A stretch of 64,000 nucleotides of DNA from Croceibacterium salegens (GTDB lineage: Bacteria > Pseudomonadota > Alphaproteobacteria > Sphingomonadales > Sphingomonadaceae). Where the stretch lies: the NCBI RefSeq assembly GCF_009827435.1, contig NZ_WTYM01000052.1, positions 1 through 64,000 of the forward strand. The letters are read 5' to 3'. Shown in pieces: positions 3,682-26,233 of this stretch (the first letter of the stretch is position 1; each line of letters opens with the position of its first letter). The notes beneath the pieces are model-generated. The model had not been told where the DNA came from, did not search any database, and saw nothing but the letters and a program-made list of their open reading frames with translations. The translations under genes were made by a program, and so were the position numbers.

Positions 3682-3684
3682 CGA

Positions 3685-7458: not shown

Positions 7459-7465
7459 TGCTGCC

Positions 7466-7771
7466 TCAAGCCGATGCCGCGCCGCCGTCGAGCGGGAGAG
7501 TGCCTTCCGACTGTTTGCTAGGTCCGCTCGCAGTGTCGCATGACTCACCCTGAAAGAAGGCCGCGCCGCGCTTGCGCCAGCCCTCCCCGGTCGCCTTGTC
7601 GTTGTTGGCCGCCGCATCGAGCAGCGCGCCCGCCAGCACATCGGCATCGAGCGTGTCGGCTCCGGTTGCTGTAACCAGCGCGCCGAGGTCGCGCACGCGG
7701 CGTTCCTTCAACTGCTTTGCCTTGTCGGCCAGGGCCTTCAGTTCCGAATCAAAATCGCGGGGTTTGCGCAT
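7466..7771 (-). CDS. traC: Conjugal transfer protein TraC
   Basis: A 101-residue TraC-family relaxosome accessory protein: MRKPRDFDSELKALADKAKQ, then RRVRDLGALVTATGADTLDADVLAGALL, then KGRGAAFFQG-type C-terminus (here WRKRGAAFFQGE). Charged, helical and divergent from traA with the presumed oriT between them. The start ATG 7771 is preceded by GGAGATATCCC. The gene is complete. Confidence 0.85.
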   Translation of the reverse strand: MRKPRDFDSELKALADKAKQLKERRVRDLGALVTATGADTLDADVLAGALLDAAANNDKATGEGWRKRGAAFFQGESCDTASGPSKQSEGTLPLDGGAASA

Positions 7772-7885
7772 GGGATATCTCCATCGTTGGTGTGATGGAG
7801 CCATGATAATCTCTGAGCTTTCCCAATGCAGTAAGGTCGCCGGGACAGTGTGAAACCGCCTAGTCCCGATCAGGATTTTATCATG

Positions 7886-7912
7886 AGAGGGCGCGCTTAT
7901 ACGTCGTGCTGA
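7886..7912. other. Candidate oriT nic region
   Basis: Within the 173-bp traC-traA spacer, GGGCGCGCTTATACGTCG closely resembles the nic-region consensus of Ti-plasmid/RSF1010-type (MOBQ) origins (GGGCGCAATTATACGTCG-like), and is followed by GCTGACGC as in those plasmids. A MobA/TraA-type relaxase encoded 40 bp away is the matching enzyme. The cleavage position is inferred from the family, not shown. Confidence 0.65.
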
Positions 7913-7944
7913 CGCAGGCTTTGCGGTGTAACTGGATTGCCGAC

Positions 7945-10830
7945 ATGGCAATCTTTCACTTCAGCGCAAAGGTCATCGGAAGGTCGAGCGGACGTAGTGC
8001 CGTTGCGGCGGCGGCCTATCGTGCAGGCGAACGGTTGCACGATGAACGCATCGACAGAACCCATGATTTCACCAACAAGGCAGGCGTTCTTCATTCCGAA
8101 GTGATGCTGCCCAAAAGCGCGCCCGAAGCCTTCGCGGACCGGGCCACTTTGTGGAACGCGGTCGAGGTCGCCGAGAAGCGCAAGGATGCCCAGCTTGCCC
8201 GCGAGGTCGAGTTCGCCCTGCCGCGTGAGCTGTCGAAGAAAGACAACATCAGGCTGGCGCGCGAGTTCGTGAAAGCCGAGTTCGTCGAAAAAGGCATGAT
8301 CGCCGATCTCAATGTCCATTGGGATATTGGCGAGGACGGCAAGGCGAAGCCGCACGCCCATGTCATGCTCACGATGCGCGAAGTGATAAAGGACGGCTTC
8401 GGCGCGAAGGTCCGCGACTGGAACAAGACCGCGCTGATCGAACAATGGCGTGAGCGCTGGGCCAATCATGTGAACCGCGCGCTGGCGGAACGCGACATCG
8501 ATGCACGAATCGATCACCGCAGCCTGGAAGCGCAGGGCATAGCGCTCGAACCGCAGGACAAAATCGGCCCCGCAGCCTCGCGTATTAGCGGACGCGGGCT
8601 GGAAGCCGAGCGGATCGAGGAACACCGCGCGATTGCCCAGCGCAATGCCGAGCGCATCATCGCCAATCCCGCGCTGGCGCTCGACGCGATCACGCACCAA
8701 CAGGCCACATTCACCAGGCGCGATCTTGCCGCCTTCATCCACCGGCACAGCGATGGCAAGGAACAGTTCGACGCGGCCTACAATGCGGTGCGCGTATCGC
8801 CCGATCTGATTGCGCTTGGGAAGGACGGACGCGGGCAGGACCGATTCACTTCGCGCGCGATGATCGAGACCGAACAGCGCCTGCATCGCGCCGCCGATGT
8901 GATGGCCGCGCGCGCAAGTCACAGCGTCAGTAATGTTCAGCGAAATGCTGCATCCGCCAGAGCCGTAAAGCGCGGCCTGATCCTGTCGGGCGAGCAGAAA
9001 TCCGCCTTTGAGCACGTCACCAAAGGCAAGGGTCTTGCGGTTGTGGTCGGCTACGCGGGAACGGGCAAAAGCGCCATGCTGGGCGTTGCGCGCGAGGCAT
9101 GGGAAAGCGCGGGCTACACTGTGCGCGGTGCTGCCCTGTCCGGCATTGCCGCCGAGGGCCTGGAGAACGGTTCCGGCATCGCATCGCGCACCATCGCCAG
9201 CCTTGAGCACCAATGGGGCAAGGGGCGCGAGCGTCTGACCGCCAAGGATGTGCTCGTCATCGATGAAGCGGGCATGGTCGGCACGCGCCAGATGGAGCGC
9301 GTGCTCTCCCATGCCGCGAAGGCCGATGCAAAGGTTGTCTTGGTTGGCGATCAGCAGCAGCTTCAGGCCATCGAAGCAGGCGCAGCCTTCCGGGCGATCC
9401 ACGAGCGCCACGGCGGGGTCGAGATCAGCGAGGTTCGCCGCCAGCTTTCCGCATGGCAGCAGGACGCGACCAGGCACCTCGCGACGGGCCGCATCGGCGA
9501 AGCTATCCGGACCTATGAGGAGCACGGTATGCTCCATGCCGCCGACACCCGCGAGGTCGCGCGGACAGAGCTGATCGAGCGTTGGAATCAGGAACGGCAG
9601 GACAGCCCTGGCGACAGCCGGATCATCCTCACCCACACCAATGACGAGGTGCGCGAGCTGAACCAGATGGCGCGCGAAAAGATGCGTGCAGCGGGCGCGC
9701 TAGGGGTTGACGCTACGATCAAAGCGGCACGCGGCGAGAGGCAATTTGCATCGGGCGACCGCATCATCTTCCTGCGCAATGAGCGCGGGCTTGGCGTCAA
9801 GAACGGGACGCTCGCCACGGTCGCAATGGCCAGCGCGCAGCGCATGGCCGTCCGAACAGACGATGGCCGCGAAGTCGCCTTCGACACCAAGGACTACACC
9901 CATATCGATCATGGCTATGCCGCCACGATCCACAAGGCGCAGGGCATGACGGTGGACCGCGCCCATGTGCTCGCTACTCCCGGCATGGACAGCCATTCCG
10001 CCTATGTCGCCATGTCGCGCCACCGCGACGGACTTGCCCTCCACTATGGCCGCGATGACTTCGCCGACCAGTCGAAGCTTGTTCGCACACTGAGCCGCGA
10101 GCGCGGGAAGGACATGGCTGGCGATTACAAGCCTGAGCAGGCTTTCGCCGAACTGCGCGGCATCAGCTTCCGCGAGCGGATCGTGGAGATGGTTCGGCAG
10201 GTGCCGGAACGCGCCAAATCGATCTTTGGAAACTTTCGTCCGCAGGCCCGCCAGCTCGAAGCGCTTCCGGCACAAATCAACACGCAGAACGACCAGCACC
10301 GCGCGGTCGAACGCTATGCCCGCGCACTTGGCGATATCGGCACGATGCAGGCCCAGGGCTTGCCCGTGCTCCCGCACCAGAAGGACGCGCTGGAGAAGGC
10401 AGGAAAGGCGCTCGACGCGATCCGGCCCCATGCCGCCACCGATCTCGCCAAGGCGCTGGAGCGGCGTCCTGAGCTGATTGCAGGAGCCGCTGGCGGGCGC
10501 AGCCAGGAGGCGATGCGCGCCATGCAGAACGAAGCCGCCGTGCGCACCGATCCTGCGTTGCGATCCGAGCGCTTTGTCAGCGACTGGCAGAGGCTGAGCG
10601 CGGCACGCAAGCAGCTTGAGCAGCAAGGTGACCGCGCAGGTGCTGCCCGCTTGTCCGCGAAGCAGAACGAACTGGCGAAAGGTCTTGAACGTGATCCGCA
10701 GGTCGAAGGCCTGCTGCGCAGCAAGGCGCGTGAACTCGGCATCGATCCGAAGCCCGAACGCAGCATCGCCAATGAACTCACCGCAACCCTCACCCGCGAG
10801 CGCACCCGCGCCTTCGACATGGGCATTTAG
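7945..10830 (+). CDS. traA: TraA relaxase-helicase (MOBQ, Ti type)
   Basis: A 961-residue fused relaxase/helicase. The N-terminal MobA/MobL domain (about 1-200) starts MAIFHFSAKVIGRSSGRSAV and has the metal-binding histidines in NVHWD (H125) and KPHAHVMLT (H137, H139). A RecD/TraI-like helicase follows: Walker A GYAGTGKS (369-376), Walker B VLVIDEAGM, VVLVGDQQQLQ, and the UvrD-C-like IHKAQGMTVDRA and YVAMSRHRDGL. The C-terminal 250 residues are helical. I chose ATG 7945 because the family begins MAIFHFS. It nicks oriT, stays bound to the 5' end and unwinds the strand for transfer. The next gene begins 10 nt downstream. Confidence 0.92.
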   Translation: MAIFHFSAKVIGRSSGRSAVAAAAYRAGERLHDERIDRTHDFTNKAGVLHSEVMLPKSAPEAFADRATLWNAVEVAEKRKDAQLAREVEFALPRELSKKDNIRLAREFVKAEFVEKGMIADLNVHWDIGEDGKAKPHAHVMLTMREVIKDGFGAKVRDWNKTALIEQWRERWANHVNRALAERDIDARIDHRSLEAQGIALEPQDKIGPAASRISGRGLEAERIEEHRAIAQRNAERIIANPALALDAITHQQATFTRRDLAAFIHRHSDGKEQFDAAYNAVRVSPDLIALGKDGRGQDRFTSRAMIETEQRLHRAADVMAARASHSVSNVQRNAASARAVKRGLILSGEQKSAFEHVTKGKGLAVVVGYAGTGKSAMLGVAREAWESAGYTVRGAALSGIAAEGLENGSGIASRTIASLEHQWGKGRERLTAKDVLVIDEAGMVGTRQMERVLSHAAKADAKVVLVGDQQQLQAIEAGAAFRAIHERHGGVEISEVRRQLSAWQQDATRHLATGRIGEAIRTYEEHGMLHAADTREVARTELIERWNQERQDSPGDSRIILTHTNDEVRELNQMAREKMRAAGALGVDATIKAARGERQFASGDRIIFLRNERGLGVKNGTLATVAMASAQRMAVRTDDGREVAFDTKDYTHIDHGYAATIHKAQGMTVDRAHVLATPGMDSHSAYVAMSRHRDGLALHYGRDDFADQSKLVRTLSRERGKDMAGDYKPEQAFAELRGISFRERIVEMVRQVPERAKSIFGNFRPQARQLEALPAQINTQNDQHRAVERYARALGDIGTMQAQGLPVLPHQKDALEKAGKALDAIRPHAATDLAKALERRPELIAGAAGGRSQEAMRAMQNEAAVRTDPALRSERFVSDWQRLSAARKQLEQQGDRAGAARLSAKQNELAKGLERDPQVEGLLRSKARELGIDPKPERSIANELTATLTRERTRAFDMGI

Positions 10831-10840
10831 GAGAACCAAC

Positions 10841-11599
10841 ATGGAAGACGACCACATCGAAGAAGTGCAACTGGACCTTGAAGTGGAGGAACCGCCCGCC
10901 CCGGAATCAGGGCCGGAGGCCGCCACGGAATCCGATCCAGCAACGGAAGCCTTCGCCCGCCTCGAAGGTGAAATGGCGATGGTGCGCCACACCGTTCAGA
11001 ACATGGCTAGGGAGCGAGCCGACATCGTGATCCCGGACTACACGGCAACGCTCGGCCAGATGGCCGATCAGCTGGCACAGGTCTCCAAGGCGCTGACCGC
11101 AATCGGCAACAAGTCTGCCATCGAGCTGACCCCGGAAGACATTGCAGTTCAGATCAAGCGCGCCTCGCTCGACATGCTGCGCGACAGCAGCGACCTTTTC
11201 CGCCACGGACGCAAAGACCTCGACCTTGCAACCGGTCGGCTCGCCGCAATTGTCGGACGTGTCCGCACCGAGGCCGAGCAGAAGCGTCAAATCTGGCGCT
11301 TTGCAAGCAGAGGTGTGCTGGCCGGTATCCTGCTATGGTCAATCCTGCCCGGCACCGTCGCGCGCACCATGCCTGAAAGCTGGCATTTGCCTGAGCGAAT
11401 GGCTCGCAAGGCTGTTGGTGAGCCGACCATTGTTGAGGCAGGAATAAGGTTGATCCGATCTCAGAACCCCGAAGCATGGGAGGAGTTGATGGTGACCCAC
11501 AGAACGCTGAACGCGAACCGCGAAAAATTGGACCGATGCACCGAGAAGGCGCGGAAGGAGGAAAGATCGGTCACTTGTTTAATTACGATTTTGCCTTGA
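10841..11599 (+). CDS. Transfer-region accessory protein, one membrane segment
   Basis: A 252-residue protein of unknown function that regularly follows traA in alphaproteobacterial elements (I believe the DUF6118 family). It has a very acidic N-terminus (EEVQLDLEVEEPPAPES), a helical middle with probable coiled coil (about 45-160), one membrane-spanning stretch (GVLAGILLWSILPGTVA, about 165-182) and a polar tail. A transfer-associated role is inferred only from its 10-nt spacing behind traA. The start is supported by GGAG just upstream, at the end of traA. Confidence 0.75.
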   Translation: MEDDHIEEVQLDLEVEEPPAPESGPEAATESDPATEAFARLEGEMAMVRHTVQNMARERADIVIPDYTATLGQMADQLAQVSKALTAIGNKSAIELTPEDIAVQIKRASLDMLRDSSDLFRHGRKDLDLATGRLAAIVGRVRTEAEQKRQIWRFASRGVLAGILLWSILPGTVARTMPESWHLPERMARKAVGEPTIVEAGIRLIRSQNPEAWEELMVTHRTLNANREKLDRCTEKARKEERSVTCLITILP

Positions 11600-12185
11600 G
11601 GTTCTTGCAAACAATTTCGCACCATGCATGGGGCGGCTTTGCGCCCTAACTAAAGCCGATCAACGCGGGCCGCGACGGCCCCAGACGCTTCCGTCGGTTT
11701 TAGTCGCGACCAAAGCTTGCAAAGACTTGTCGGTCGCACCCAACATTGGACCGTCTGCGGATGCGTCAGCTGAAACCCGATGCGTTTACTGCCAGTCGGG
11801 CGTCATTCTTTCAATTTCTTGTAGACCTCGGACAGGCGGAAGGCTCCGGCTCAAAGCCGCGTCGAGTAAGTCTGTATTGGCCAAGCGACGTCGTGGACGA
11901 TGTAGTCCGAACCCATGCTACCCGGTTCGAACAGGTTGGCGGCGTGGCCATATCGGCGGTTGGGTAAGGTTCAGCGCTTATGGGAAGGAACTCGGCAAGC
12001 CGCCACCAGCCCGCCATGGACTTGTGAAGTTTCGCCCGGGGGCCTGCGGGCTGATAGCCGCTGGCGGGGGCTCGCCGAGAATCTTGGCGGCGCGCTCTCC
12101 ATCCATCAGAATACCCTCGGCAGCGGCTTCGCCCATTGGAGCCGTCACGTCGCTCTGCGAAACATCCTGCCGCTGGCGAACTGAC
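11600..12185. other. Gene-poor stretch, probable decayed sequence
   Basis: About 590 bp between the convergent 10841 and 12186 genes. Open frames on both strands are short, unsupported by ribosome-binding sites and unlike known proteins. A minus-strand frame at about 11850-11960 looks faintly protein-like but lacks a start. I read this as remnant sequence at the junction between the mobilisation module and the defence-like module. Confidence 0.45.
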
Positions 12186-15100
12186 CTATTCGAAGCGGCT
12201 TTCGCGCTCGCGATCGTGCTCGTCCCAGCGCCGAATGTTCTCCTCCAGCGCTTTTCCGGCCTCGCGCGCCCAATTACGAACACGCACATCGCTGTGTTCG
12301 CGCATTACGGCGATCAGCGGCCGGCGTCTGACAAACCGTCCCGAGAAGGGTCCCGAGCTTGTGCCGGTGAAGAATCTGCGCTCAAACTTGCGCAGTACCG
12401 GAACGGGATCGGGCGCGGCATCAATCAGCGCAAGGGCAAAGGGCGACCAAACAAGCGGCCCATCTTCCGCTTCGCGGGCGGTATAGGGGATCAATTCGGC
12501 AAGTCCGCTTGCCCGCTCCTCTGGCGCCTCGCGGACCCACTCGATGGCAATATCTTCGTCGAAGGTCACGGTCTTCTTGTTCGAATCGCTGTCGTTCCTG
12601 ACGTGGCCTCCGAAAAAGCGGGCGGCCAAGTCCTGGTGAACCTCGCGCGTAAAAATCTCCTCGAGGACGACGCGAGGAAAGGACATCATCAGCAGCTTGC
12701 AGATCTTGTCGAAACCGCCGTCATGATAGTTCCCGCTGTCCCGCGATGCGCAAAGCGCGCGGCAGGTCGCCCGGGCGGCGTCTTCCGCTCCCTCACCATC
12801 CAATGCGACCTTGGCGATGGTGGCGATGCCGTGATCCTCGCGCGCGCCTTCCTCAGCGAAGGAGCGTGGGTCGGCAAGGAGTTTGCGCCCGAGTTCGATC
12901 AGTGCGGAATCGACCGCGCGCTTGTCGCTGCGATCGCCAAAGATACGCATATGGAGGATCTGGAGGGCGGGAATTGCGCCGCCGTCCAGCTCGTAGAGTG
13001 TCTTGAGAAACCGGCTCAGAGCGGGGCCGGGAACCGGCTTGCTGACTCCCCCCATCTGCAGTTGGCCAAAGCGCCATAGCGGAACGGCCCCGTGCGCGAT
13101 TGCGCGTTCGAAGCGCGCCATTGCGACGTCGTCGAGTGGCAGAGCGAGCTGGAGAATGACGAAATGCTCGGCAAGCACCGGGTCGGTCACCGCATCATCC
13201 AGCCAAAGCTCCACCTGTTCGCGATTCCGCTTGGCAGCGCCTTCCAGCAGTCCGGTCAAGACGAGCGGATTCCGCGTGTCGTCCCCCATCGTTCGAAAGA
13301 CAGCCAAGGTCTCCTGCCAGAGCCGCGCCGGATCGCCGCTGCTTCGAGCGACTCCGCGCGCGAATTGCAATGCGCTGTTCTGCCCTTCACCGACAATGGC
13401 GCGTGCAAGGTATGGAACGGGATCGGCGTGCTTGGCGACGCAGATCCCCGTCGCTTCTGCCAATTTCCCTACGTCGCGGGTCGAGCGTTTCTCGGTTCTT
13501 ACGGGATGCCAATGACGCCACGGCTCGCCAAGCACGAACGCATCGAAGCACTCAGCGATCGTTTGCGGCCGCAGGTCGCGTTCGAGCGCGCGCACTTCCG
13601 CCAGCATGTCGTCGCCAAGTCCTTTGCCACTGAAGCTCAGACCATCGACGACCGCGCGCCATCCGGCATCCCAATAACCCTTGCCGCGGACCGCGCGCAT
13701 GGCCGCGATCGGCAACTCGGGCAGCCCCACGTCGAGATGCTCGCGGAAGTGGTTGGCGATGATATCGCGTGCTCGCTCGGCTCCCGGTTCATCACCAGAG
13801 GCAATGCGAGTGGCACGATCATAGGCGGCGCCGAACCAACCACGGTACCCCTCGCGACCGCCCGGCCGCCACTCTTTCAGATGCGCCTTGGCGCCGAACT
13901 CGAGATTGAGTGATGAACTGAAGTGGCCAGCGTCGAGCATGTGATCGAGTGCTTCGAGACCGAGCGTCCTGGCCTCCTGGTTGGGGTCGTCGAGAAGCCG
14001 GTCTATGAAATCTAGCCGGGTTGCCTGGTCTGCCAGAGTGAACGACAGGTGAGTCCAGAAGCGCTCAAGAAAATGCTTGCTGGCCTTGTGATCGTCTCGC
14101 GCGTCACCATCGGCCAGCGCGTATGCAAGCAGCACCTCCATCGCTCGTCCGAATAGCGTCGGCTCGTGCGCCAGATGCACGAGCAATTCCGGATAGTAAC
14201 GCCGCCCTTCCGAATGTGGGTCGAGCAGCTGGTCGCGCTGCGGACCAGCCAGCGATCGCTCGAACGAAGCTAGCGCGGCCCCCGGCGCTGCCGGCGCCAT
14301 TTGGTTGAAACCGCGCCGCAAGACATCGTCGAGCCCGGCCGGTTCCCCGAACGCGCCATCTGGACCCAGCAGACGCTCGGCAAGTCGGACTGCAGCCGGC
14401 TCGTTGTGAAGCTGCCCCAGCCGGCGCGCGAATGAAGCGAGCAGCCGGGGCGAGGCCGTCAGAAAATGGTCGAGCAGCGTCTCTGGATCGCTTCGCCTAA
14501 TGAAAGGGGCCGCGAGCATGTTCGCGAAGGGTGGCGGCATCACCGCTCGTTGCGGCCCGCGCTGCTGGATCACTCCCCATTCCAGAAATGTCGCCACGTT
14601 GCGAAAGAAGGTATCGACGTTCACGCCCGCGATGGCGGCCAGGACGGGATGCTCGGCCATCTGATGATCGCCCGCTTCGACATAGAAAGCATAGACGAGC
14701 GATGCGACGTCGGCACAGGCACGAGCGCTGGGCTCGCGTTCGCGGCGGCCGCTCTGGAAAAGGCGTTCGAGCAGTTCGCCATCGTTGAGCGTCGACAGGT
14801 CGATGCCCTTGTCCGTTCCCTCCGCGATCTTGAGCGCAATCCGGGCATTGCCGCCGGAGAACTCGGCGAGGTGGCGGCATTCGGCCTCGCTCAACGTGGG
14901 AACGCGCTGCTCTAGGAGCGATATCAGCACGATCTCGCTGTTCTCGCCGAGCGCGCCGAGAAGGCCTGCCGGCTTCTCCCCGCCCATGTCATAATCGATC
15001 GTCAGCACGCTGATATGTCCGCCGGACCGTCGCGCTATCTCAGCCAGTTGGCCGTGGATCGCCGCGTTGGCATTGTCGACGACAAGAATGGCGTCGACAC

Positions 15101-15962
15101 CGGCGAGCATGAGTTCCTCGGCGACCCGCGCGGCGCCCACCTCTAGATCCCGTCCGGCGTCGCCGTAGATGGCTTTGGCCTTGGGCAATGCCCCTTCGCC
15201 AAGATTTTCGTCGAACAGGGCCTCGGCAAGCCGTGTCTTGCCCATTCCGGATAAGCCGACGAGCCGCACCACGCCCCTTGGCTCGCGCAGGGCGGCACGT
15301 ATACTCGCGATCGCTGAATGCATGTCGACCAATTCGTCGCCGAACGTCGCACGGGCCTGGTCGTCGACGATATATGGCTTGCTTGTGGCGCCTTCCGCCG
15401 ACCAGTCGCCGTAGGGCCGCCATCCGCCTAGCGAGCGGCCGCCCTGGCGGAGCAGCCAGATCGCTACGCCGGGATGCCGATTGGCCCAGCGCGCAATGCG
15501 ATCCGCCCCATAGAAATCGAGTTGGATCCGGTCAGCCTGTTCGACATCGCCGAGGCTCTCTCGCATCGCCTTCGAGCGATTGTCCATCGCCGACTTGGTG
15601 GGATCGTCGGTCGAGAAGATGACATAGGCCCCGGCTTCGGTGGCGAGCTCGGAAAAGATCGGGCGCGGTTTTTCCGCGGGCCTCATCTCGTCGCGAATCT
15701 TCGCCGGGCCCATCGCTTCGGCCTTGCATTGAAAAAAGATCAGCCGCCGCGGCAACCAGTCGACCGGCTCCGGCAAATCGTTCCACCGGATCGATGCATC
15801 AACGCCGCCATCGGCTGCTGTCTGATTTCCACCGACCGCGATGGCGAAATGCGAAATGCCCCGCAAATTGGCCTCGGCAACAAGGAGGCGTTCGAGAAGG
15901 GCGCGCAGCTGAACATCGTCCAGCCCTGCGACAAGTTCCTTGGAGACCTCGAACGGTCCCAT
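12186..15962 (-). CDS. PD-(D/E)XK-like nuclease / STAND NTPase / helical-repeat protein
   Basis: A 1258-residue protein with three parts. Residues 30-150 look like a restriction-type nuclease fold: AVGGNQTAADGGVD (D51, D55) and then LIFFQCKAE (K80), the spacing of a PD-(D/E)XK active site. Residues about 230-430 are a STAND-like P-loop NTPase with Walker A GLSGMGKT (236-243) and Walker B AILVVDNA (291-298). The remaining 800 residues are helical and repeat-like, as in sensor arms. The architecture parallels Avs-type antiviral NTPases, whose C-terminus recognises a phage protein and unleashes the nuclease. I cannot place it in a named Avs family. It is the last gene of a three-gene operon, starting 1 nt after the HTH gene's stop, with GGAGGGTGAG as ribosome-binding site. 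Confidence 0.85.
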   Translation of the reverse strand: MGPFEVSKELVAGLDDVQLRALLERLLVAEANLRGISHFAIAVGGNQTAADGGVDASIRWNDLPEPVDWLPRRLIFFQCKAEAMGPAKIRDEMRPAEKPRPIFSELATEAGAYVIFSTDDPTKSAMDNRSKAMRESLGDVEQADRIQLDFYGADRIARWANRHPGVAIWLLRQGGRSLGGWRPYGDWSAEGATSKPYIVDDQARATFGDELVDMHSAIASIRAALREPRGVVRLVGLSGMGKTRLAEALFDENLGEGALPKAKAIYGDAGRDLEVGAARVAEELMLAGVDAILVVDNANAAIHGQLAEIARRSGGHISVLTIDYDMGGEKPAGLLGALGENSEIVLISLLEQRVPTLSEAECRHLAEFSGGNARIALKIAEGTDKGIDLSTLNDGELLERLFQSGRREREPSARACADVASLVYAFYVEAGDHQMAEHPVLAAIAGVNVDTFFRNVATFLEWGVIQQRGPQRAVMPPPFANMLAAPFIRRSDPETLLDHFLTASPRLLASFARRLGQLHNEPAAVRLAERLLGPDGAFGEPAGLDDVLRRGFNQMAPAAPGAALASFERSLAGPQRDQLLDPHSEGRRYYPELLVHLAHEPTLFGRAMEVLLAYALADGDARDDHKASKHFLERFWTHLSFTLADQATRLDFIDRLLDDPNQEARTLGLEALDHMLDAGHFSSSLNLEFGAKAHLKEWRPGGREGYRGWFGAAYDRATRIASGDEPGAERARDIIANHFREHLDVGLPELPIAAMRAVRGKGYWDAGWRAVVDGLSFSGKGLGDDMLAEVRALERDLRPQTIAECFDAFVLGEPWRHWHPVRTEKRSTRDVGKLAEATGICVAKHADPVPYLARAIVGEGQNSALQFARGVARSSGDPARLWQETLAVFRTMGDDTRNPLVLTGLLEGAAKRNREQVELWLDDAVTDPVLAEHFVILQLALPLDDVAMARFERAIAHGAVPLWRFGQLQMGGVSKPVPGPALSRFLKTLYELDGGAIPALQILHMRIFGDRSDKRAVDSALIELGRKLLADPRSFAEEGAREDHGIATIAKVALDGEGAEDAARATCRALCASRDSGNYHDGGFDKICKLLMMSFPRVVLEEIFTREVHQDLAARFFGGHVRNDSDSNKKTVTFDEDIAIEWVREAPEERASGLAELIPYTAREAEDGPLVWSPFALALIDAAPDPVPVLRKFERRFFTGTSSGPFSGRFVRRRPLIAVMREHSDVRVRNWAREAGKALEENIRRWDEHDRERESRFE

Positions 15963-15963
15963 C

Positions 15964-16962
15964 TCACCCTCCGCGAGCGCCGAAACCAGGCTGCCGCTTC
16001 AGTTCGGACAGCTGGTTCGCTACCAACTCGATCGATGGCCGGTAACCGTCGAAACGCTCGTAGAGCGGCTCGACGAAATCATGGACGACATCCTCGAGAC
16101 TGCGCTCAAGGTCGGAAATTTGCGCTACCGTGGCGAGTTCGGCCCTGTGCGAGCGGGCGCGCAGCCGATGGTCGAGAACGTCGCGCAGCAGCGGCTTTGC
16201 CCAAGTAATCAACGTGCGGCCTTCAAGGCCCGTATAGCGAGCCACGAAGCGGATTTCGGTCGTATCGCTCGCGTCGAGCGCACGCGCGAAATTCATTGCA
16301 TGCAGAAAGAACTCGGCAGTGCGCCAGATAGGCAAGGTGAGGTCGAAGATCGTTCCCGGCTCGAGATTGTCCGGGCCGTCCTCCTGATAGCCGCGCTGGA
16401 GGTAGGCGAAAGGATCGCGCGAGACGCGCCAGAAATCACTGTGCGCCGCATCGCGAAAATGCCGGTCGGTGTCGGGCAGGCCCAACCAGCATTCGAGCGC
16501 ACCGTCCTCGATGACGGGCCGTAGGTCCGGTCGGGTCGGAACCCAGAACGGGGTCCATCCGGAACTCTTGGGGATGTCGGTCAGGAGCTCGCGAAGCTGG
16601 CTGGGCGGAGGAACATCCTCGAGGCCGAGGATGGCGTAGGTCTGTTCGCTGTGCCCGAGCGGTTGGCGCGAGGGGTGATCGGATGGCAGCGTTGCGACGA
16701 GGTCCTCCCATCGGCGACGCGAGTCGTGCAGGAAGCTCTCGAAGCTGTCCTCGTCGGCGGGGCGCACGAAGAGGTCCAGCGCCTCGAGAATCGCGATTAC
16801 CCTTTCGAAGCGCAGGTTGATCTGGCCCTGCTCGAACGCATTGACCGTCGGCAGGCTCACGCCAGCCAGCGCGGCTAGGCTGCGCTGGCTGAGACCTTCT
16901 TCCTTGCGGCGGCGAATGGCTTCGTCGACCGTTGCGCGCCAATCGATCGGCCAGTCGGTCAT
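15964..16962 (-). CDS. XRE/HipB-like HTH protein with large C-terminal domain
   Basis: A 332-residue protein. The N-terminal 70 residues are an XRE helix-turn-helix of HipB type (SQRSLAALAGVSLPTVNAFEQGQINLRFERVIAILEALDL), the usual antitoxin partner of HipA. Unlike ordinary HipB (about 75-110 residues) it carries about 250 extra residues (SGWTPFWVPTRPDLRPVIED, FWRVSRDPFAYLQRGYQEDG, FDLTLPIWRTAEFFLHAMNF). That segment resembles the C-terminal part of some AlbA_2/Schlafen-type ATP-binding proteins, but this is from memory. It overlaps hipA by ATGA and is followed after 1 nt by the nuclease-STAND gene. Likely roles: repressor of the operon, antitoxin, and perhaps a sensor that links the kinase to the nuclease. 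Confidence 0.8.
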   Translation of the reverse strand: MTDWPIDWRATVDEAIRRRKEEGLSQRSLAALAGVSLPTVNAFEQGQINLRFERVIAILEALDLFVRPADEDSFESFLHDSRRRWEDLVATLPSDHPSRQPLGHSEQTYAILGLEDVPPPSQLRELLTDIPKSSGWTPFWVPTRPDLRPVIEDGALECWLGLPDTDRHFRDAAHSDFWRVSRDPFAYLQRGYQEDGPDNLEPGTIFDLTLPIWRTAEFFLHAMNFARALDASDTTEIRFVARYTGLEGRTLITWAKPLLRDVLDHRLRARSHRAELATVAQISDLERSLEDVVHDFVEPLYERFDGYRPSIELVANQLSELKRQPGFGARGG

Positions 16963-18143
16963 GTGAAGATCCTTTGCGCATGGCCATGGATGACGTTCCG
17001 ATAGGTTTCGCGGAAATCATCGGGCTGAACCTTGTCCCCGAACGCGAGCGTGCGCGCGGTCGCCAACCCCTTGCCGAGCGCGGCAAGCGTGCGCTCGACG
17101 GCAGCGCGGGGCAAGCCGATATCGAGACCGAATTGCTCGACAATCTTGCGGTCGATCGTATCGAATTCGCGTTTGCGTCCGCCGATCGAAAGCGCGGTAA
17201 TCCGGTCGTAGACGGGGTAGGCGAGCGTGTTGATGAGATCGTATGCGGGCGAGAGCCGCAGGCCCTCCGCTCGTTCGAGCAGGGAGAAGTTCTTGAGATG
17301 CGCGTCGGCGTTACCCAACACTAGATTGAAGACGACAAGACGGAAGAACCGGTTGAGGTCGACCCGGCCCCGCGCGGAATAGCGGGTCACAATTTCGGCC
17401 GCTTCCTCGTAGCTCCCGTCATATTTGCCTTCAAAGGTCCGCCCCCGTGGTCGGCTGAGGATTTGCGCAAAATCCTCGAGGCGCAGCCGCTCCTCGCCTT
17501 GGCGGTCGAAGCGTTCGACCAGAAGCGCGATCCCGGCGATATCGTGCAGCTTTGCTAGCTGCGCGCGCGTCACATCGTCTTCGCCGAGAAGCTCGCGAGC
17601 TAGGCTAAGCGAAAGATGCTCGTTCTGGACGATCGTGGGAAGATCCTCGCGGTTGAATTTGGCGATATGCGTGGCCGGGTCGGTGGCCTCCACGGCTGGC
17701 CGGAAGCCATCGTCGGCGCGAAAGGCGAGCAGTTTCTTCTGCACCCCCGACAAGGTCCGTCCAGCGGTGGTCGCCGCCTCGTCGATGAGGTCGTCCTCGA
17801 TCGGATGGACCGGCGCTTCCCCGTCTGCCGGGATCAGGCCCACTGCGCCGATACAGTCCGCCCCGTAGTGTAGCAGCAGTCCGAAATCGTCTTGGTTCGC
17901 CGTGCCGCCGGCGCGCGCCTGGCGCCCGCGGAGCCAGCCTTCCGGGGCGAGATGCTCGAAAAAGGGAATCAGGCCGCCGCGCCAGTAATGGTCCCGTGTC
18001 TCTGCGGGAAGCGCGCAGGCGATCGTCTCGCGCCAGCCCTCGTCATAGACGAAGCGGGTGTCCGAACCTAGCTCGCTGAGCCGACCGACAGGACGACGCT
18101 TGAAGGTGACGATGGCGTGGCGGTCGGCGATGGCGATACCCGA
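16959..18143 (-). CDS. HipA-like serine/threonine kinase, 5' end without a normal start
   Basis: HipA-family kinase. Coding similarity covers the whole family: the N-terminal subdomain (ADRHAIVTFKRRPVGRLSEL, YWRGGLIPFFEHLAPEGWL, DFGLLLHYGADCIGAV) and the kinase core (TLSGVQKKLLA, HIAKFNRED, LVERFDRQ, catalytic FNLVLGNADAHLKNFSLL, SPAYDLINT). HipA phosphorylates GltX in E. coli. The frame is open back to a TGA at 18144-18146, but no ATG, GTG or TTG exists between that TGA and GTG 17843, which would remove about 100 conserved residues. An in-frame ATG (18173) lies nine codons beyond the TGA. Either a rare start (ATC/CTG) is used or the 5' end is damaged. It is the first gene of the operon with the HTH and nuclease-STAND genes. 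Confidence 0.8.
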   Translation of the reverse strand, partial: SGIAIADRHAIVTFKRRPVGRLSELGSDTRFVYDEGWRETIACALPAETRDHYWRGGLIPFFEHLAPEGWLRGRQARAGGTANQDDFGLLLHYGADCIGAVGLIPADGEAPVHPIEDDLIDEAATTAGRTLSGVQKKLLAFRADDGFRPAVEATDPATHIAKFNREDLPTIVQNEHLSLSLARELLGEDDVTRAQLAKLHDIAGIALLVERFDRQGEERLRLEDFAQILSRPRGRTFEGKYDGSYEEAAEIVTRYSARGRVDLNRFFRLVVFNLVLGNADAHLKNFSLLERAEGLRLSPAYDLINTLAYPVYDRITALSIGGRKREFDTIDRKIVEQFGLDIGLPRAAVERTLAALGKGLATARTLAFGDKVQPDDFRETYRNVIHGHAQRIFT

Positions 18144-18165
18144 TCAGGCTAATGAGACGACACGT

Positions 18166-18189
18166 CTTATCATCGCCAAGATGATTAAG
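18166..18189. promoter_or_regulatory. Dyad upstream of hipA, candidate operator
   Basis: Inverted repeat CTTATCATC - GCCAA - GATGATTAAG (one bulged base) just upstream of the hipA reading frame, in an AT-rich stretch (18160-18260) that contrasts with its surroundings. HipB-type proteins bind dyads in front of their own operon, so this is a candidate binding site for the HTH protein encoded at 15964-16962. No binding motif match is claimed. Confidence 0.45.
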
Positions 18190-18493
18190 CAATATTGAAC
18201 ATATGCGAAATTGTATTGGAAATATACGGTATCTCTGATCGACTGTCTTCCGTGAATGTAGGATCAATTTTCCCAACCAGCGCAAGCGCACAGACATAAA
18301 AAAACAGCTAATCTGAAACGCTGATACATTGGCTGCGGGCATTGCAGTGCTTTCTTGAACAAAACCAGAAAGCGGCCCTTGCGTCATACCGCGTCGAGAT
18401 GCCGCGAGACCGCAATTTGCGAAACCTTAATCACGAGCGATCCTCTGGACCGTCACCGGTCGACACACTCCTCCGCCCGGGCGGACCAATCCT

Positions 18494-18616
18494 ATGACCC
18501 CGACTAAATTGCTCATCCACCAGATCCTCGTGGTGTTCGCGATCGTCCTCGCGGGATTATGGGTTCACTCAGCGCGAATGAATGGAAAGCAAGTTCAATT
18601 GGCCTCATCTGAGTAA
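18494..18616 (+). pseudogene. Relic of traG (coupling protein) N-terminus
   Basis: A 40-codon frame beginning MTPTKLLIHQILVVFAIVLAG, which resembles the first membrane segment of TraG/VirD4-type coupling proteins in alphaproteobacterial transfer regions. After about 23 residues the sequence departs from the family and stops. Nothing else of the usual 600-plus residue protein is visible in the window. It lies alone in the 590-bp stretch between the hipA operon and rtcA (18147-18732), which otherwise shows no gene. I infer that traG was lost when the neighbouring modules were exchanged. Confidence 0.5.
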
Positions 18617-18732
18617 GCTAGCGGCCGCTTTGCCAGCGCCAGTTGACAAAGGCATCGGGTAAAACGAATGGCAGCTTCGCTTGTTGTCGCGCCTACAACC
18701 GGACAGTCGGCGAACGACCCAACTCGCGGCGA

Positions 18733-19749
18733 TCAGCAAACCTCTGCCAAATGTGCTCCGTCGGCGGTTTCCGAGAAGCGAAAATCCCGCCCCGAAAATC
18801 GTTCGATCAAGTCTGCTGCGGTGCGGGTGTGCTCACTGAGCTTGACTGTAGTGAATGCTCCACGGCCCGCCATTGCGAACGGCAGCAACAACTGGTCTTG
18901 AAGGTAAGGTCCGGCAAAGGCCTGCGACGCCAGATAGCCCGCCATACGCTTGGCCGCTGTCTTTGCCAGGCGTTCCGCAGGCACGCCAAGCTTACCGAAG
19001 CCAGACATGACTTCCGTGACATGGTCGAATTCAGCTTCCATGAGTAGGGCATTCCCCGGGCCATTCTCGGCCGGGAGTTGCACTGGAGCGAAGGCTTCGT
19101 CCGGCCATTCGGCCAGCACCTTGCGCGCCGCCTTCAGTTCTCGATCAGCGATGTCGAACGGAATTCCGGCAACCAGCGCTTCTACCTTGCCAGCCTTGAA
19201 CTCGCCGCGCGTCACGCATTCGATCGGGCGCAGCGGCGCTGGATCGATGTCCACGACAATGCGCCCGCCGCCGCGCGGGTAGAAGCCGTGACGCTCGAGC
19301 GTGATGGAAATCTGTGGCCCCATCCGCTCCAGCACCGGCAGCAGCGTCTTTTGGAGGAACTCAAAAGGCGGCGCGGCCATCGCGTGGGTACCGCCCTCAA
19401 TCACCAGTTTTGACGGCGCATCGGCCAGCATCAACGGCACCAGCACGGTCTGCAGTACCAGCCCGGTCGAACCGGCAGTGCCGACGGCGAAATGGTATTC
19501 GCCGGGCGTAACGCTGCCGGGCCGAAAGATTAGCTCGCTGGCACCAACAGTCAGCCCGGAGCATTCCGCTCCGCCGATGGCGCAGGCCGCTTCCAGCGCG
19601 GTGACATGCTGGCGCATCAGGCCGGGCTTAGCCCTGCCCCCGCGGATGTTCTGGATGGTGAAGGGCTCGCCGGTCAGCAGCGAAAGGGCTGCGGAATACC
19701 GTAACACCTGTCCGCCACCCTCACCCTCGGAGCCGTCGATCGTGATCAT
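18733..19749 (-). CDS. rtcA: RNA 3'-terminal phosphate cyclase
   Basis: A 338-residue RtcA. It converts 3'-phosphate RNA ends to 2',3'-cyclic phosphate using ATP. Family signatures: N-terminal IDGSEGEGGGQVLRYSAALS, RGGRAKPGLMRQH, then FYPRGGGRIVVDI and the C-terminal histidine region KLSEHTRTAADLI, which contains the adenylylated histidine. Length matches E. coli RtcA. Its ATG overlaps the stop of the nucleotidyltransferase gene (ATGA), and it is the last gene of the rsr-Y RNA-rtcB operon. Conditional expression through RtcR and sigma-54 is expected from the promoter at 24195-24210. Confidence 0.93.
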   Translation of the reverse strand: MITIDGSEGEGGGQVLRYSAALSLLTGEPFTIQNIRGGRAKPGLMRQHVTALEAACAIGGAECSGLTVGASELIFRPGSVTPGEYHFAVGTAGSTGLVLQTVLVPLMLADAPSKLVIEGGTHAMAAPPFEFLQKTLLPVLERMGPQISITLERHGFYPRGGGRIVVDIDPAPLRPIECVTRGEFKAGKVEALVAGIPFDIADRELKAARKVLAEWPDEAFAPVQLPAENGPGNALLMEAEFDHVTEVMSGFGKLGVPAERLAKTAAKRMAGYLASQAFAGPYLQDQLLLPFAMAGRGAFTTVKLSEHTRTAADLIERFSGRDFRFSETADGAHLAEVC

Positions 19750-20540
19750 TCTTTTTCTACCAATTCAAGGAAAAGCGCTTCGGCCTCTTCCGCAAAGTTC
19801 GTGTTATCGGCGCGCTCTGGCACTTCGCCAGCGCGTGAGAGCTCATCTGCTACCAACCGTTCGATATCGGGCAGCCTAATGGTGTTTCCCGCTTCGTTGG
19901 TTTTCGCCTTTCGAGCGATCAATTCACCAACCTGATCCACCAAGACCCGATCCAGGTCAGCCGCCTGCATCAGAGGCACCATGCTCATCGGCGGACGCCT
20001 CGACGGATCGAGGCGCAGCGCACGTACGGAGAGCGCCGGTCGCAGCGCATAGAAATATCGCTTCACGGCGATCTCGCCGCCTGGATCGAGCCAGCGTTCC
20101 ACTGTGCCCTTGCCAAGGCTGGCGTAGTGCAGCGCGTAGCCACGCGGGTTAAAGTGGCGGTTGGCAAGGTCAGCAAGCTGCTCAACCACCGGATCGTCAG
20201 CAATGTAGCGGATGGAGCTTTCGATCCACTCCGACAGGACCGCGTTGTGCTTGAGCATAAGGCCCAGCGCCTTGCGAACATCCCAGCCGTTCAGATCGAT
20301 CTCATCGACAATGGGCCGTTCGACCACATCGCGGACCGGCTTAAGCGCGAGATAGTCTCGGCGAGGCCGGATGTAGAGAAAGCGCACGTCGTAATCGCTG
20401 TCAGGCGATGGGAAGCCCCATGCGCGCGAACCGGATTCCACCGCCATCAGCAGGCGCACGCCGTCCTCGCTCGCCACATGGGCGAGACGGGCCTCGATAT
20501 CGGCGCGCACTGCGGGCGCGATGGCTAGCGTATCCTGCAT
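19746..20540 (-). CDS. Nucleotidyltransferase (pol-beta superfamily, YcgL/COG3541 type)
   Basis: A 264-residue predicted nucleotidyltransferase. The signature is AVESGSRAWGFPSPDSDYDVRFLYIRP (about 33-59): the GSRxWG loop and DSDYDVRF with the metal-binding aspartates, followed by the family segment DLNGWDVRKALGLMLKHNAVLSEW. The substrate is unknown. It sits between rtcB (43 nt upstream) and rtcA (ATGA overlap), so it is almost certainly co-expressed. Pol-beta-type nucleotidyltransferases have been noted in RNA-repair neighbourhoods, where end addition to a tRNA or tRNA fragment would make sense. That role here is inference. Confidence 0.85.
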   Translation of the reverse strand: MQDTLAIAPAVRADIEARLAHVASEDGVRLLMAVESGSRAWGFPSPDSDYDVRFLYIRPRRDYLALKPVRDVVERPIVDEIDLNGWDVRKALGLMLKHNAVLSEWIESSIRYIADDPVVEQLADLANRHFNPRGYALHYASLGKGTVERWLDPGGEIAVKRYFYALRPALSVRALRLDPSRRPPMSMVPLMQAADLDRVLVDQVGELIARKAKTNEAGNTIRLPDIERLVADELSRAGEVPERADNTNFAEEAEALFLELVEKE

Positions 20541-20583
20541 CGAAATTATCTTTGGTCTCTTGGCGGTAGCGGCGTGAAGGGTG

Positions 20584-21810
20584 TTACCCCTTCACGCACA
20601 CCACCTGTTTCAAGGTATGGACGATCTCCACCAGATCGGCCTGCGCGGCCATCACGGCTTCGATCGGCTTGTAGGCCTTGGGCGTTTCATCAATCACGCC
20701 CTCGTCCTTCCGGCATTCGACACCGGCGGTATCGGCGATATGCTCGTCGAGCGTCACCAGCTTCTTCGCCTGGGTTCGGGACATAACGCGCCCTGCACCG
20801 TGCGAGCAGCTGTCAAAGCTCTCGGCATTACCCAGCCCGCGCACGATAAAGCTCTTCGCCCCCATCGATCCGGGGATGATGCCCATCGTGCCCTTCGCGG
20901 CTCGCACCGCCCCCTTACGGGTGACGAGTACGTTTTCGCCGAAGTGGTTTTCCCGCGTCACATAGTTGTGATGGCAGTTCACCGCTTCGCACTCGGCATC
21001 GAACGGCTTGGCGATCTGGCTCCGGAGTGCATCGAGCACGTGCGTCATCATCACGCGCCGGTTAAGCGCCGCAAAGTCCTGCGCCCATTCGACCGCTTCG
21101 ACATAGTCGTCGAAATGGTCGGTCCCTTCCGGGAAATAGGCGAGGTCCTGATCAGGCAGGTTGATATGCCACTTGCGCATGTCCTGCTTGGCCAGCTCGA
21201 TGAAGAACGTACCGATCGCGTTACCCACCCCGCGCGAGCCCGAGTGGAGCATGACCCACACGCGCTGTTCGGTATCGAGGCACAGCTCGATGAAGTGGTT
21301 GCCGGTTCCCAGCGTCCCCAGATGCACGAGGTTGTTCGTGTTCTTCAGCCGCGGGTACTTGGCTACGATCTGTCCGAACCGTTCGGCCAGTTTTGCCCAG
21401 GCATCGACCACCACGCGGGGCGGATCACCCCACGAACCCTTGTCGCGCTTGCCGCGTCCGACGCTGCGGCCATGCGGCACCGCCGCCTCGATCGCGGAGC
21501 GAATGCCGGCAAGGTTGTCCGGTAGGTCGCTCGCCACCAGCGAGGTACGCGCGGCCATCATGCCGCAGCCAATGTCGACGCCGACTGCAGCAGGGATCAC
21601 CGCGCCTTTGGTCGGAATTACTGAGCCGACGGTCGCACCGATCCCCACATGCACGTCGGGCATGGCGGCCACGTGCTTGAAGATGAACGGCATCTTCGCC
21701 GCCTTGGTCAGCTGCTCTCGCGCCTTGTCGTCAACGGGAACACCGCGGGTCCACATCTTGATCGGCGACCCGCCCTCCACGTCCTGATACTCATACGTCG
21801 TCTGGGTCAT
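20584..21810 (-). CDS. rtcB: RNA ligase RtcB
   Basis: A 408-residue RtcB, the GTP/Mn-dependent ligase that joins 2',3'-cyclic phosphate or 3'-phosphate RNA ends to 5'-OH ends. Seen motifs: MPDVHVGIGATVGSVIPT, GVDIGCGMMA (metal cysteine), GTLGTGNHFIE, MLHSGSRGVGNA, NCHHNYVTREN, IIPGSMGAKSF and the guanylylated-histidine motif CSHGAGRVMSR. ATG 21810 was chosen over the longer frame because GAGGAGGTCGCG lies directly upstream and homology starts there. It is encoded 29 nt after the last Y-RNA-like structure in the same direction. Confidence 0.95.
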   Translation of the reverse strand: MTQTTYEYQDVEGGSPIKMWTRGVPVDDKAREQLTKAAKMPFIFKHVAAMPDVHVGIGATVGSVIPTKGAVIPAAVGVDIGCGMMAARTSLVASDLPDNLAGIRSAIEAAVPHGRSVGRGKRDKGSWGDPPRVVVDAWAKLAERFGQIVAKYPRLKNTNNLVHLGTLGTGNHFIELCLDTEQRVWVMLHSGSRGVGNAIGTFFIELAKQDMRKWHINLPDQDLAYFPEGTDHFDDYVEAVEWAQDFAALNRRVMMTHVLDALRSQIAKPFDAECEAVNCHHNYVTRENHFGENVLVTRKGAVRAAKGTMGIIPGSMGAKSFIVRGLGNAESFDSCSHGAGRVMSRTQAKKLVTLDEHIADTAGVECRKDEGVIDETPKAYKPIEAVMAAQADLVEIVHTLKQVVCVKG

Positions 21811-21838
21811 CGCGACCTCCTCATGCTTCTTCATAGGT

Positions 21839-21938
21839 GCTGGCGACAAGTTTTGGCGAGACTTCTCCGCATGTTGCCATGCGGGGGCGGGTTCGAACCG
21901 CCTGGTTACCGATGTAGTCCCGACCGGCATTCGCCAGC
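21839..21938 (-). ncRNA. Y-RNA-like element 1 (tRNA-like, GCAA-capped acceptor arm)
   Basis: About 100 nt, fifth from the promoter. Terminal stem GCTGGCGA/TCGCCAGC, conserved 5' block GAATGCCGGTCGGGACTACATC, and upper helix GGTCGGGAC/GTCTCGCC (one bulged T). The head holds a T-arm (GGCGG TTCGAAC CCGCC) followed by a 7-bp hairpin CCGCATG-GCAA-CATGCGG, equivalent to an acceptor stem closed by a tetraloop. No D-arm or anticodon arm is evident. Known bacterial Y RNAs bind Ro60 through the stem and mimic tRNA with the head. Confidence 0.75.
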
Positions 21939-21951
21939 GCTGATATTCGGT

Positions 21952-22077
21952 GCTGGCGGCGAGTGATTGATGAGACGCTTTACTGAGCTACTCCGGTTGC
22001 CCGGGGGCGGACTCGGACCGCCGACCTCCTGCTTTCGCAGGCGCTCTACCCATGTAGTCCCACCGGCATCCGCCAGC
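21952..22077 (-). ncRNA. Y-RNA-like element 2 (tRNA-like, extra GAAA hairpin)
   Basis: About 126 nt. Terminal stem GCTGGCGG/CCGCCAGC, the conserved block GGATGCCGGTGGGACTACAT, and upper helix GGTGGGAC/GTCTCATC. The head has an extra hairpin CCTGC-GAAA-GCAGG (22028-22041) where an anticodon arm would be, a T-arm (GGCGG TCCGAGT CCGCC), a GCAA-capped acceptor-like stem and a D-arm-like TAGCTCAGTAAAGC. With a GAAA tetraloop there is no anticodon, so it cannot decode. Confidence 0.75.
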
Positions 22078-22093
22078 GATAATTGATACTCGG

Positions 22094-22232
22094 TTCACGG
22101 CGACGAGGTTTTGGAAAGACGTTCCTGCTCTACCCGCTGAGCTACAGGCCCATAGTTGGTGGACCTGGCGGGATTCGAACCCGCGACCTGGCGATTACAA
22201 TTCGATGTAGTCCTTCCAGCATTCGCCGTGAA
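22094..22232 (-). ncRNA. Y-RNA-like element 3 (circularly permuted tRNA head)
   Basis: About 139 nt. Terminal stem TTCACGGCGA/TCGCCGTGAA, block GAATGCTGGAAGGACTACATC, upper helix GGAAGGAC/GTCTTTCC. The head is a tRNA in permuted order: 3' half first (TTGTAATCGCC, T-arm GCGGG TTCGAAT CCCGC, acceptor strand CAGGTCC, then ACCA), a 5-nt linker ACTAT, then the 5' half (acceptor strand GGGCCTG, D-arm TAGCTCAGCGGGTAGAGC). The acceptor strands pair over all 7 positions with one G-T. The loop fragment TTGTAA resembles tRNA-Thr(UGU). Confidence 0.8.
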
Positions 22233-22235
22233 TTT

Positions 22236-22406
22236 GGAAAAGGTCGGGGCAACGAGTGTTGGTGAGACAATCGACCCTTAAGCTACGTTCCAGCGGCGGG
22301 ATTCGAACCCACATCTCCCCGCAGGATTGCTCCCATGGGGCGCTTTACTCGTCGGGCCTATCATGTGGGAGATGTAGTCCCACCGGCATTTGCCCCGGCC
22401 CTTTCC
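22236..22406 (-). ncRNA. Y-RNA-like element 4 (longest, enlarged head)
   Basis: About 171 nt. Long terminal stem of roughly 16 bp with one mismatch (GGAAAGGGCCGGGGCAA with TTGCCCCGACCTTTTCC), block AAATGCCGGTGGGACTACATC, upper helix GGTGGGAC/GTCTCACC. The head has a T-arm (GTGGG TTCGAAT CCCGC), a GCCCC...GGGGA arm with a large loop, and a weak D-arm-like TAGCTTAAGGG. The acceptor stem is short or lost. Its 3' edge is 4 nt from element 3, so the two may be separate products of one transcript. Confidence 0.7.
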
Positions 22407-22419
22407 AAAATCAATCTAT

Positions 22420-22522
22420 TCAAAGGTCGCGGCGACGAGGCTTGGGAAAGACCGGCGCCCCTCTGCAGAGAGCACCATCGTGACAGGATGTAGTCCTTCC
22501 CGGCATTCGTCGCGACCTTTGA
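22420..22522 (-). ncRNA. Y-RNA-like element 5 (no tRNA mimic)
   Basis: About 103 nt, nearest to rsr and starting only 5 nt after its stop codon. Terminal stem TCAAAGGTCGCG/CGCGACCTTTGA (12 bp), block GAATGCCGGGAAGGACTACATC, upper helix GGAAGGAC/GTCTTTCC. The head is a simple imperfect hairpin (about 22450-22480, GGTGC...GGCGCC) without T-arm or D-arm, like a minimal Y RNA. It is probably released from the rsr mRNA by processing. Confidence 0.7.
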
Positions 22523-22526
22523 TGTT

Positions 22527-24086: not shown

Positions 24087-24120
24087 AGTCCAACTCCATC
24101 ATCAAACTTCATCGGGCTTT

Positions 24121-24146
24121 GGGCGGCCGGCCCATTCCGGCCGCCC
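24121..24146 (-). promoter_or_regulatory. GC-rich hairpin in rsr leader
   Basis: A perfect 10-bp inverted repeat GGGCGGCCGG / CCGGCCGCCC with a 6-nt loop, inside the predicted 5' untranslated leader of rsr (transcription would start near 24184, translation at 24086). There is no T-run in the direction of transcription. It could be an mRNA-stabilising or attenuating structure; nothing more can be said from sequence. Confidence 0.5.
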
Positions 24147-24194
24147 ATTTCCCGCGTCTCGCCGGGTGTTCGACTTACCCGACGGTTTGGATAG

Positions 24195-24346: not shown

Positions 24347-24354
24347 AAGCGGGC

Positions 24355-26156: not shown

Positions 26157-26233
<77 letters not shown>

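Follow-up and report, generated by a model that had tools for sequence, protein, structure and literature searches.

The window analysed here is a stretch of 64,000 nucleotides (nt) of the alphaproteobacterium Croceibacterium salegens (NCBI RefSeq assembly GCF_009827435.1, contig NZ_WTYM01000052.1, positions 1 to 64,000). The element under study is an operon of three consecutive minus-strand genes, from 18131 to 12186, encoding a HipA-like kinase, a HipB-like helix-turn-helix (HTH) protein and a nuclease-STAND protein (Table 1). As a preliminary description of this DNA had stated, the genes are tightly packed: the hipA stop codon (16961-16959) shares the sequence ATGA with the ATG of the HTH gene, and 1 nt separates the HTH stop from the ATG of the 1258-residue STAND gene. 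The description had also proposed that the three genes are stably coupled and are a candidate for a new defence system. We found that the coupling is rare, recurrent and unstable, that it is a coupling of known parts, and that HTH-STAND fusions in relatives are the best sign of its function. The parts, their order and overlaps, as well as the fusions and remnants reported below, can be read directly from the sequences. Other loci and genomes are designated by L and G numbers.

Table 1. Positions of the operon and of associated features in the window.
Feature	Position	Strand	Remark or basis
HipA-like Ser/Thr kinase gene	16959..18131	-	390 aa if started at ATC 18131-18129
Probable non-canonical ATC start codon of hipA	18129..18131	-	codon alignment
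HipB-like HTH protein, 332 aa	15964..16962	-	HTH residues 5-69, extra domain ~74-332
C-terminal domain of HTH protein, common to SLFN_AlbA_2 proteins	15967..16743	-	alignment, Pfam
Nuclease-STAND protein, PD-Lambda-4_A family, 1258 aa	12186..15962	-	PADLOC PDLC03991
Presumed Mrr-like PD-(D/E)xK nuclease region, residues 1-80, with D51 and K80	15723..15962	-	motif
ATCAT-N7-ATGAT inverted repeat 5' of hipA, putative operator	18169..18185	.	sequence
Probable genomic island with operon	1641..26233	.	integrase 1818-2969, relaxase 7906-10830, tRNA-Arg 26157-26233

The assignment of the first two genes to a HipA-type kinase and a HipB-like partner was borne out. A Pfam search with the kinase matched HipA_C (6e-47) and Couple_hipA (7e-19), that is, both the kinase core and the N-subdomain. 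The motifs NADAHLKN (274), SPAYDL (294) and SGVQKK were all found, and a PDB search retrieved HipT and HipA chains. Residues 5-69 of the HTH protein have the HipB fold, with S. oneidensis HipB (4pu7) as best VIA match (Z 10.7, 64 aligned residues, root mean square deviation 2.9); TIGR03070 couple_hipB matched at 1.3e-12, under the family cut-off.

The extent previously given for hipA, up to 18143, was not tenable. An in-frame TGA ends at 18144, and no ATG, GTG or TTG was found between it and a GTG at 17843, where a start would delete the N-terminal HipA domain. Constraint on this part was assessed on four sequences, the window and its relatives L076, L077 and L078 (91-93% identical to it in the HTH protein and 94-95% in hipA), differences being summed over the six pairs. 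In codons 6-101 of hipA, 21, 6 and 105 differences fell on codon positions 1, 2 and 3; in the 100 nt upstream, the three phases gave 52, 48 and 43. This codon-position bias, absent upstream, indicates that the N-terminal part of hipA is very likely translated. Given the constraint on codons 6-101, we rejected the possibility of a pseudogene. Frameshifting from an overlapping upstream open reading frame (ORF) was rejected as well, the upstream region having no codon periodicity and showing indels between relatives.

Translation of hipA is likely to start at the ATC at 18131. This codon, the fifth of the alignment, is ATC at 11 of the 13 distinct sphingomonad loci (window 18131-18129, L022, L043, L048, L049, L076-L080 and L082), the remaining two having GTC and TCG; in the 50 other loci it is ATG 31 times and GTG six times (37 of 50). 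No canonical start whatever was present in 12 of the 63 hipA loci, namely eight sphingomonads and four others with ATA two codons earlier, a position at which L097 has ATG. ATA two codons 5' of the ATC position was observed in the other lineages L025, L100, L115, L125 and L142. Among the 11 ATC loci, an ATG or TTG lies in frame further upstream at two, and codon 12 is GTG at another two; as these four offer alternative starts, the case for ATC is strongest for the other seven. L081, one of the eight start-less sphingomonads, has GTC at the ATC position, which is left unexplained by an ATC start. AUC is a weak start codon, disfavoured by IF3. It may be that initiation at AUC or AUA serves to keep the toxins of this family at low levels. 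In the passages of one study that concern such codons (PMC10158994), AUC with anticodons mismatching its third base yielded no product when IF3 was present, and AUU with the CAU anticodon gave a reduced share; AUC with CAU itself lay outside that assay.

The HTH protein had been credited with about 250 unexpected residues. These are a real additional folded region beyond residue 69 (mean pLDDT of the predicted model 89.9), and residues ~70-324 proved common to SLFN_AlbA_2 proteins, only this C-terminal domain being shared: PF04326 (AlbA_2) did not match the HTH protein at E <= 1. A search of named GTDB genomes with a profile of the HTH protein gave at least 80 loci; among the matches listed, 53 start in the HTH and 27 cover the C-terminal domain only. 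Halobacteria and several bacterial phyla are represented among the 27, of which 24 align to an AlbA_2 protein with the match beginning in the first 10 residues of that protein (33 of 38 when the remaining domain-only loci are added). Both domain-only proteins that were scanned contain PF04326 (SLFN_AlbA_2), one just under the cut-off. Since the domain recurs on AlbA_2 proteins, the extra ~260 residues of the HTH protein are, judging by these alignments, a portable domain common to Schlafen-type AlbA_2 proteins. No structural matches were listed for it, but it was never modelled by itself, so that this result is uninformative on its fold.

In 52 of the 53 HTH-starting GTDB loci among the matches listed, hipA lies directly upstream (the exception is L090). 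HipA and this longer HipB-like partner thus form a pair that is widespread in alphaproteobacteria on its own. Two apparent hosts outside the alphaproteobacteria, the metagenome-assembled genomes of Microbispora (L087) and Kaiparowitsia (L100), were rejected, as their sequences nest in Roseomonas-like and Devosia rows and look like contamination. IMG/VR gave four loci with the HTH profile, with hipA at one. Schlafen-type AlbA_2 proteins whose C-terminal half is this domain are widespread in bacteria and archaea (L124, L126-L140, L144-L147, L150-L153, L026, L027 and L050-L052). At L026, a gene for a metallo-beta-lactamase-fold protein (2873-4402; PADLOC LmuA, weakly Avs1a) stands directly 5' of such a gene. 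A tblastn search with that one protein found it at 1 of 38 loci, and it was discarded as a general companion of AlbA_2 proteins.

The motifs reported for the third protein were located at residues 51 (DGGVD), 77-80 (FQCK) and 236 (GLSGMGKT), with a Walker-B-like AILVVDN at 291. Residues 1-80 we take, by their motif, to be a Mrr-like PD-(D/E)xK nuclease; no Pfam nuclease family matched the protein, and the D51/K80 motif is largely conserved in the family alignment. PADLOC profile PDLC03991 (PD-Lambda-4_A) matched residues 3-1258 (E 5.3e-201), and at E <= 1 the only profiles found were PD-Lambda-4_A and IetA. The protein thus belongs to a catalogued defence family and is not a new kind of effector. 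Component B of PD-Lambda-4 (PDLC03992) was detected neither in its own genome (0 of 1) nor in the other STAND-bearing genomes (0 of 9), an E. coli control search being positive; what we see is therefore a member of the PD-Lambda-4_A family in a different context rather than a PD-Lambda-4 system.

An Avs-like layout had been attributed to this protein. In a model of residues 1-1200 (pLDDT 83.7) the very long C-terminus is indeed helical, and the top Foldseek match was Avs3 (8dgc, E 1e-8), but the TM-scores were low (0.14 and 0.09) and no PADLOC Avs profile matched at E <= 1. For the NTPase region, AAA+ clamp loaders and NLR chains tied at VIA Z 10.8-12.8. A collection of phages contained neither the HTH nor the STAND protein at E <= 1e-5, and no relative emerged when genome contigs were first scanned with just the STAND protein. 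We infer from the sequences that the operon would serve in phage defence.

Of 396 genomes from the order, ten matched the HTH profile (eight with hipA, two of the AlbA_2 type) and eight contained the STAND family. Both were present in three genomes (G000, G151 and G321) and adjoined in all three, so that the arrangement is more than chance. Among 385 genomes of the class, HTH and STAND were each found in nine, and together only in the genome of the window. In G151 no stop codon separates the HTH frame from that of the STAND protein, and the two make up a single ORF of 1573 residues from its ATG. G321 has the same fusion, frameshifted near STAND residue 838. These genomes belong to two other genera, and hipA precedes the fusion in both. 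The preliminary description had held that a three-gene order found in this genome only would speak against it; a search of gene neighbourhoods thus disposed of that possibility.

The third place can also be taken by another protein. Sphingomonas sp. YR710 (L081, 2627-6679) has there a gene for a 1351-residue NTPase, which shares 4 nt with the end of the HTH gene, stop codon included. Among Pfam families the NTPase matched NACHT best (3e-5, slightly short of the cut-off), and PADLOC gave no match. A distant STAND protein of the same PADLOC family, encoded in G479 (L171, 3972-5969; match over residues 94-612), has the MqsA antitoxin domain at residues 7-77 (PF15731, 4.4e-16, above the cut-off) and is, by its domain composition, an independent antitoxin-STAND fusion. 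Its gene adjoins a terminase gene, probably on a prophage. The overlapping genes (389 and 313 aa) beside the STAND gene of Sphingobium TomTYG65 were considered as a hipA-HTH pair and rejected: they encode DUF4238 and a protein with a weak HNH match below the cut-off. On a Sphingobium plasmid (L005, 3414-5521), divergent overlapping genes for a weak HNH match and DUF4238 lie beside STAND, possibly another defence pair.

These observations lead us to a tentative reading of the operon, with a chance of being correct that we put just short of even. The operon may be a toxin-antitoxin module of the HipA-HipB type that became a phage-defence unit when a STAND nuclease of the PD-Lambda-4_A type was added, with the HipB-like protein as its hub. 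The HTH half of that protein would repress the operon and neutralise HipA, while its Schlafen-associated C-terminal domain would hold or signal to the STAND protein; in two relatives a covalent link joins them at precisely this point. The helical repeats of the STAND protein would recognise an infection signal, upon which the NTPase would assemble and the N-terminal nuclease become activated. HipA, presumably kept scarce by its inefficient AUC start, would provide a second layer, arresting translation if the antitoxin were lost or titrated and retaining the island in the population. The HTH-STAND fusions are the main reason for favouring this reading. It is also supported by the third slot, which has received both a nuclease-STAND and, in L081, a NACHT-type protein. 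Furthermore, in Tsuneonella L075 the HTH gene is intact while hipA and STAND are broken, as expected of an antitoxin. The tight packing of the genes, the HipB fold and HipA motifs, the STAND fold with its Avs3 match, the listing of the STAND family under defence and the MqsA-STAND fusion are further points in its favour.

Several observations weigh against such a shared function, the first coming from the closest relatives. In L075-L078, where the HTH protein is 91-96% identical to that of the window, three loci hold STAND debris: residues 1-329 followed by an in-frame stop in L075 (where hipA is damaged too, its N-terminus being gone and its frame broken farther along), 50 residues in L076 and 68 in L078. 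No STAND trace was found beside the hipA-HTH pair of L077. Over the 14 sphingomonad loci of the corresponding clade of the HTH tree, STAND is intact and separate at one, fused at two (one of them frameshifted), a remnant at three, replaced by another NTPase at one and without a trace at seven, one of which (L049) has a stop inside the HTH gene. Whole genomes of L079, L080, L081 and L082 gave no STAND-profile match. Conversely, no hipA-HTH pair was found beside the nine plasmid STAND loci examined (of 43 matching records), beside the STANDs of five other genomes of the order and of G087, or around STAND in seven of the eight other genomes of the class. In the genus samples of G151 and G321 the fusion was seen only in the carriers themselves (1 genome out of 71 and 1 out of 51); these samples also held a solo STAND (G869), more distant STANDs (G901, G877 and G860), a hipA-HTH pair (G857) and a frame-broken HTH without hipA directly before it (G916). 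Finally, no toxin-sized ORF was found just upstream of the MqsA-STAND gene on the same strand. The stable coupling that had been proposed is thus not upheld: in the loci examined the pair is usually without STAND and STAND usually without the pair, the latter being, for the family at large, the second outcome that the preliminary description had named as speaking against it.

The trees pointed the same way. In the STAND tree, L180 and L191, both of them solo genes (52% identity), are sister to the STAND gene of the window with support 99/96, and the fused pair falls outside this group; L180 lies in the same genome as L077, whose hipA-HTH pair is unlinked to it. Trees of hipA and of the HTH protein place the window and fused subclades in one sphingomonad clade (100/100) but not as sisters, so that the coupling may have had two origins or undergone frequent loss. 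A single origin with several losses, or two origins, would both fit.

Such frequent decoupling would be explained if two cassettes independent of each other happened to lie in one operon on a mobile island: a HipA-HipB addiction pair able to act by itself, supplying only a promoter and retention, and a STAND gene for defence. We consider this possible, on the doubtful side. It agrees with the near-constant company of hipA at the listed GTDB loci against a STAND trace at only 3 of those 52 (the flanks are unequal, and some contigs break off shortly beyond) and with the lack of the HTH protein in all eight other STAND-bearing genomes of the class. The solo state of the nearest STAND relatives, the loss of STAND where the HTH gene was kept and the single fusion per genus sample are likewise in its favour. 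It does not account for in-frame fusions in two genera, for a second STAND type in the slot, for an MqsA-STAND protein elsewhere or for the adjacency of HTH and STAND wherever both occurred in the order. The MqsA domain in particular led us to give this explanation less weight, and to give more both to the HipB-like protein as a hub and to the proposal that follows.

This proposal, which we regard as unlikely, is that of an antitoxin-gated immune receptor. The HipB-like protein, through the sensor domain shared with Schlafen-type proteins, would keep both the translation-arresting kinase and the Avs-like STAND nuclease off; STAND would guard the antitoxin, and phage interference with the antitoxin would fire both. 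The kinase would be throttled in advance by its conserved AUC start, and the HipB-STAND and MqsA-STAND fusions would be two inventions of the same switch.

Less probable still, the HTH protein might be a mere repressor that responds to a ligand and holds down the level of a costly STAND nuclease. An infection metabolite would be sensed by the C-terminal domain, and transcription of all three genes thereby released. The HipB-like HTH and the inverted repeat 5' of hipA, present in all four rows of an alignment judged by eye (the window and three close relatives), would suit such a role, as would the occurrence of the domain on many AlbA_2 proteins, expected of a portable sensor. Transcriptional control, however, needs no fusion of a repressor to its target, yet L043 has one. 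That hipA is decayed and the working unit is HTH plus STAND, as the missing canonical start in the window and the truncated hipA of L075 might suggest, is very improbable given the protein-level constraint on codons 6-101, the intact catalytic motifs and the ATC standing in place of ATG at one codon in 11 of 13 sphingomonad loci.

If the fusions reflect function, toxin-antitoxin pairs would through them be physically and directly connected to STAND immune receptors, and the fusions would offer a test case for antitoxins as sensors or guarded proteins in phage defence. They would also point to a portable domain joining HipB-like antitoxins and Schlafen-type proteins.

The operon is probably carried by a genomic island. 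The 3' end of tRNA-Arg recurs at 1641 as a direct repeat of 14 nt, and none of 200 random 4.6-kb stretches beyond the tRNA contained such a match. Third-position GC of the ORFs between ~4 and 26 kb is 0.64-0.79, mostly lower than beyond the tRNA. Pfam matches in the island include a tyrosine integrase and a MobA/MobL relaxase, and a helicase is also in the stretch. Beside the operon, positions 18733-25941 hold an RNA-repair cluster of RtcR, RtcA, RlaP, RtcB and a Ro60-type vWA protein; in Tsuneonella L075, an rtcA-like sequence was noticed by eye before the broken hipA.

Among the literature matches listed, in which subscription papers are mostly uncovered, there was no report of HipA coupled to a STAND protein. 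The closest known systems are HipBA modules with reversed hipAB or hipEB order (Gerdes et al. 2021, PMC8262856), with which the window shares a HipA-type kinase with N-terminal subdomain, an adjacent partner with a HipB-like HTH, and a kinase gene that comes first. It differs by the further 260-residue Schlafen-associated domain of the partner and by the STAND protein following or fused, neither of which is mentioned in that paper's passages on these modules. The passages of the DefensePredictor paper on HipAD/DS-6 (PMC13092281) likewise describe a HipA-family kinase with a dedicated partner, with reported anti-phage defence, but there the partner has DUF3037 and DUF1829 and does not resemble HipB, and a STAND gene is not mentioned. 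SLFN_AlbA_2 proteins share the C-terminal domain of the HTH protein; unlike it, they have AlbA_2 at the N-terminus, and hipA was directly beside none of the 27 listed GTDB loci. Avs (AVAST) proteins resemble the third protein in combining a nuclease, a STAND NTPase and a long helical C-terminus, with the limits given above for the Avs3 match and the PADLOC profiles. PD-lambda-4 is tabulated under P-loop NTPase in the relevant part of PMC10952713, and is not named in the passages on such systems of Vassallo et al. 2022 (PMC9519451). The STAND protein of the window matches component A of PD-Lambda-4 over its full length; where that system has component B, the operon has HipA and the HTH protein instead.

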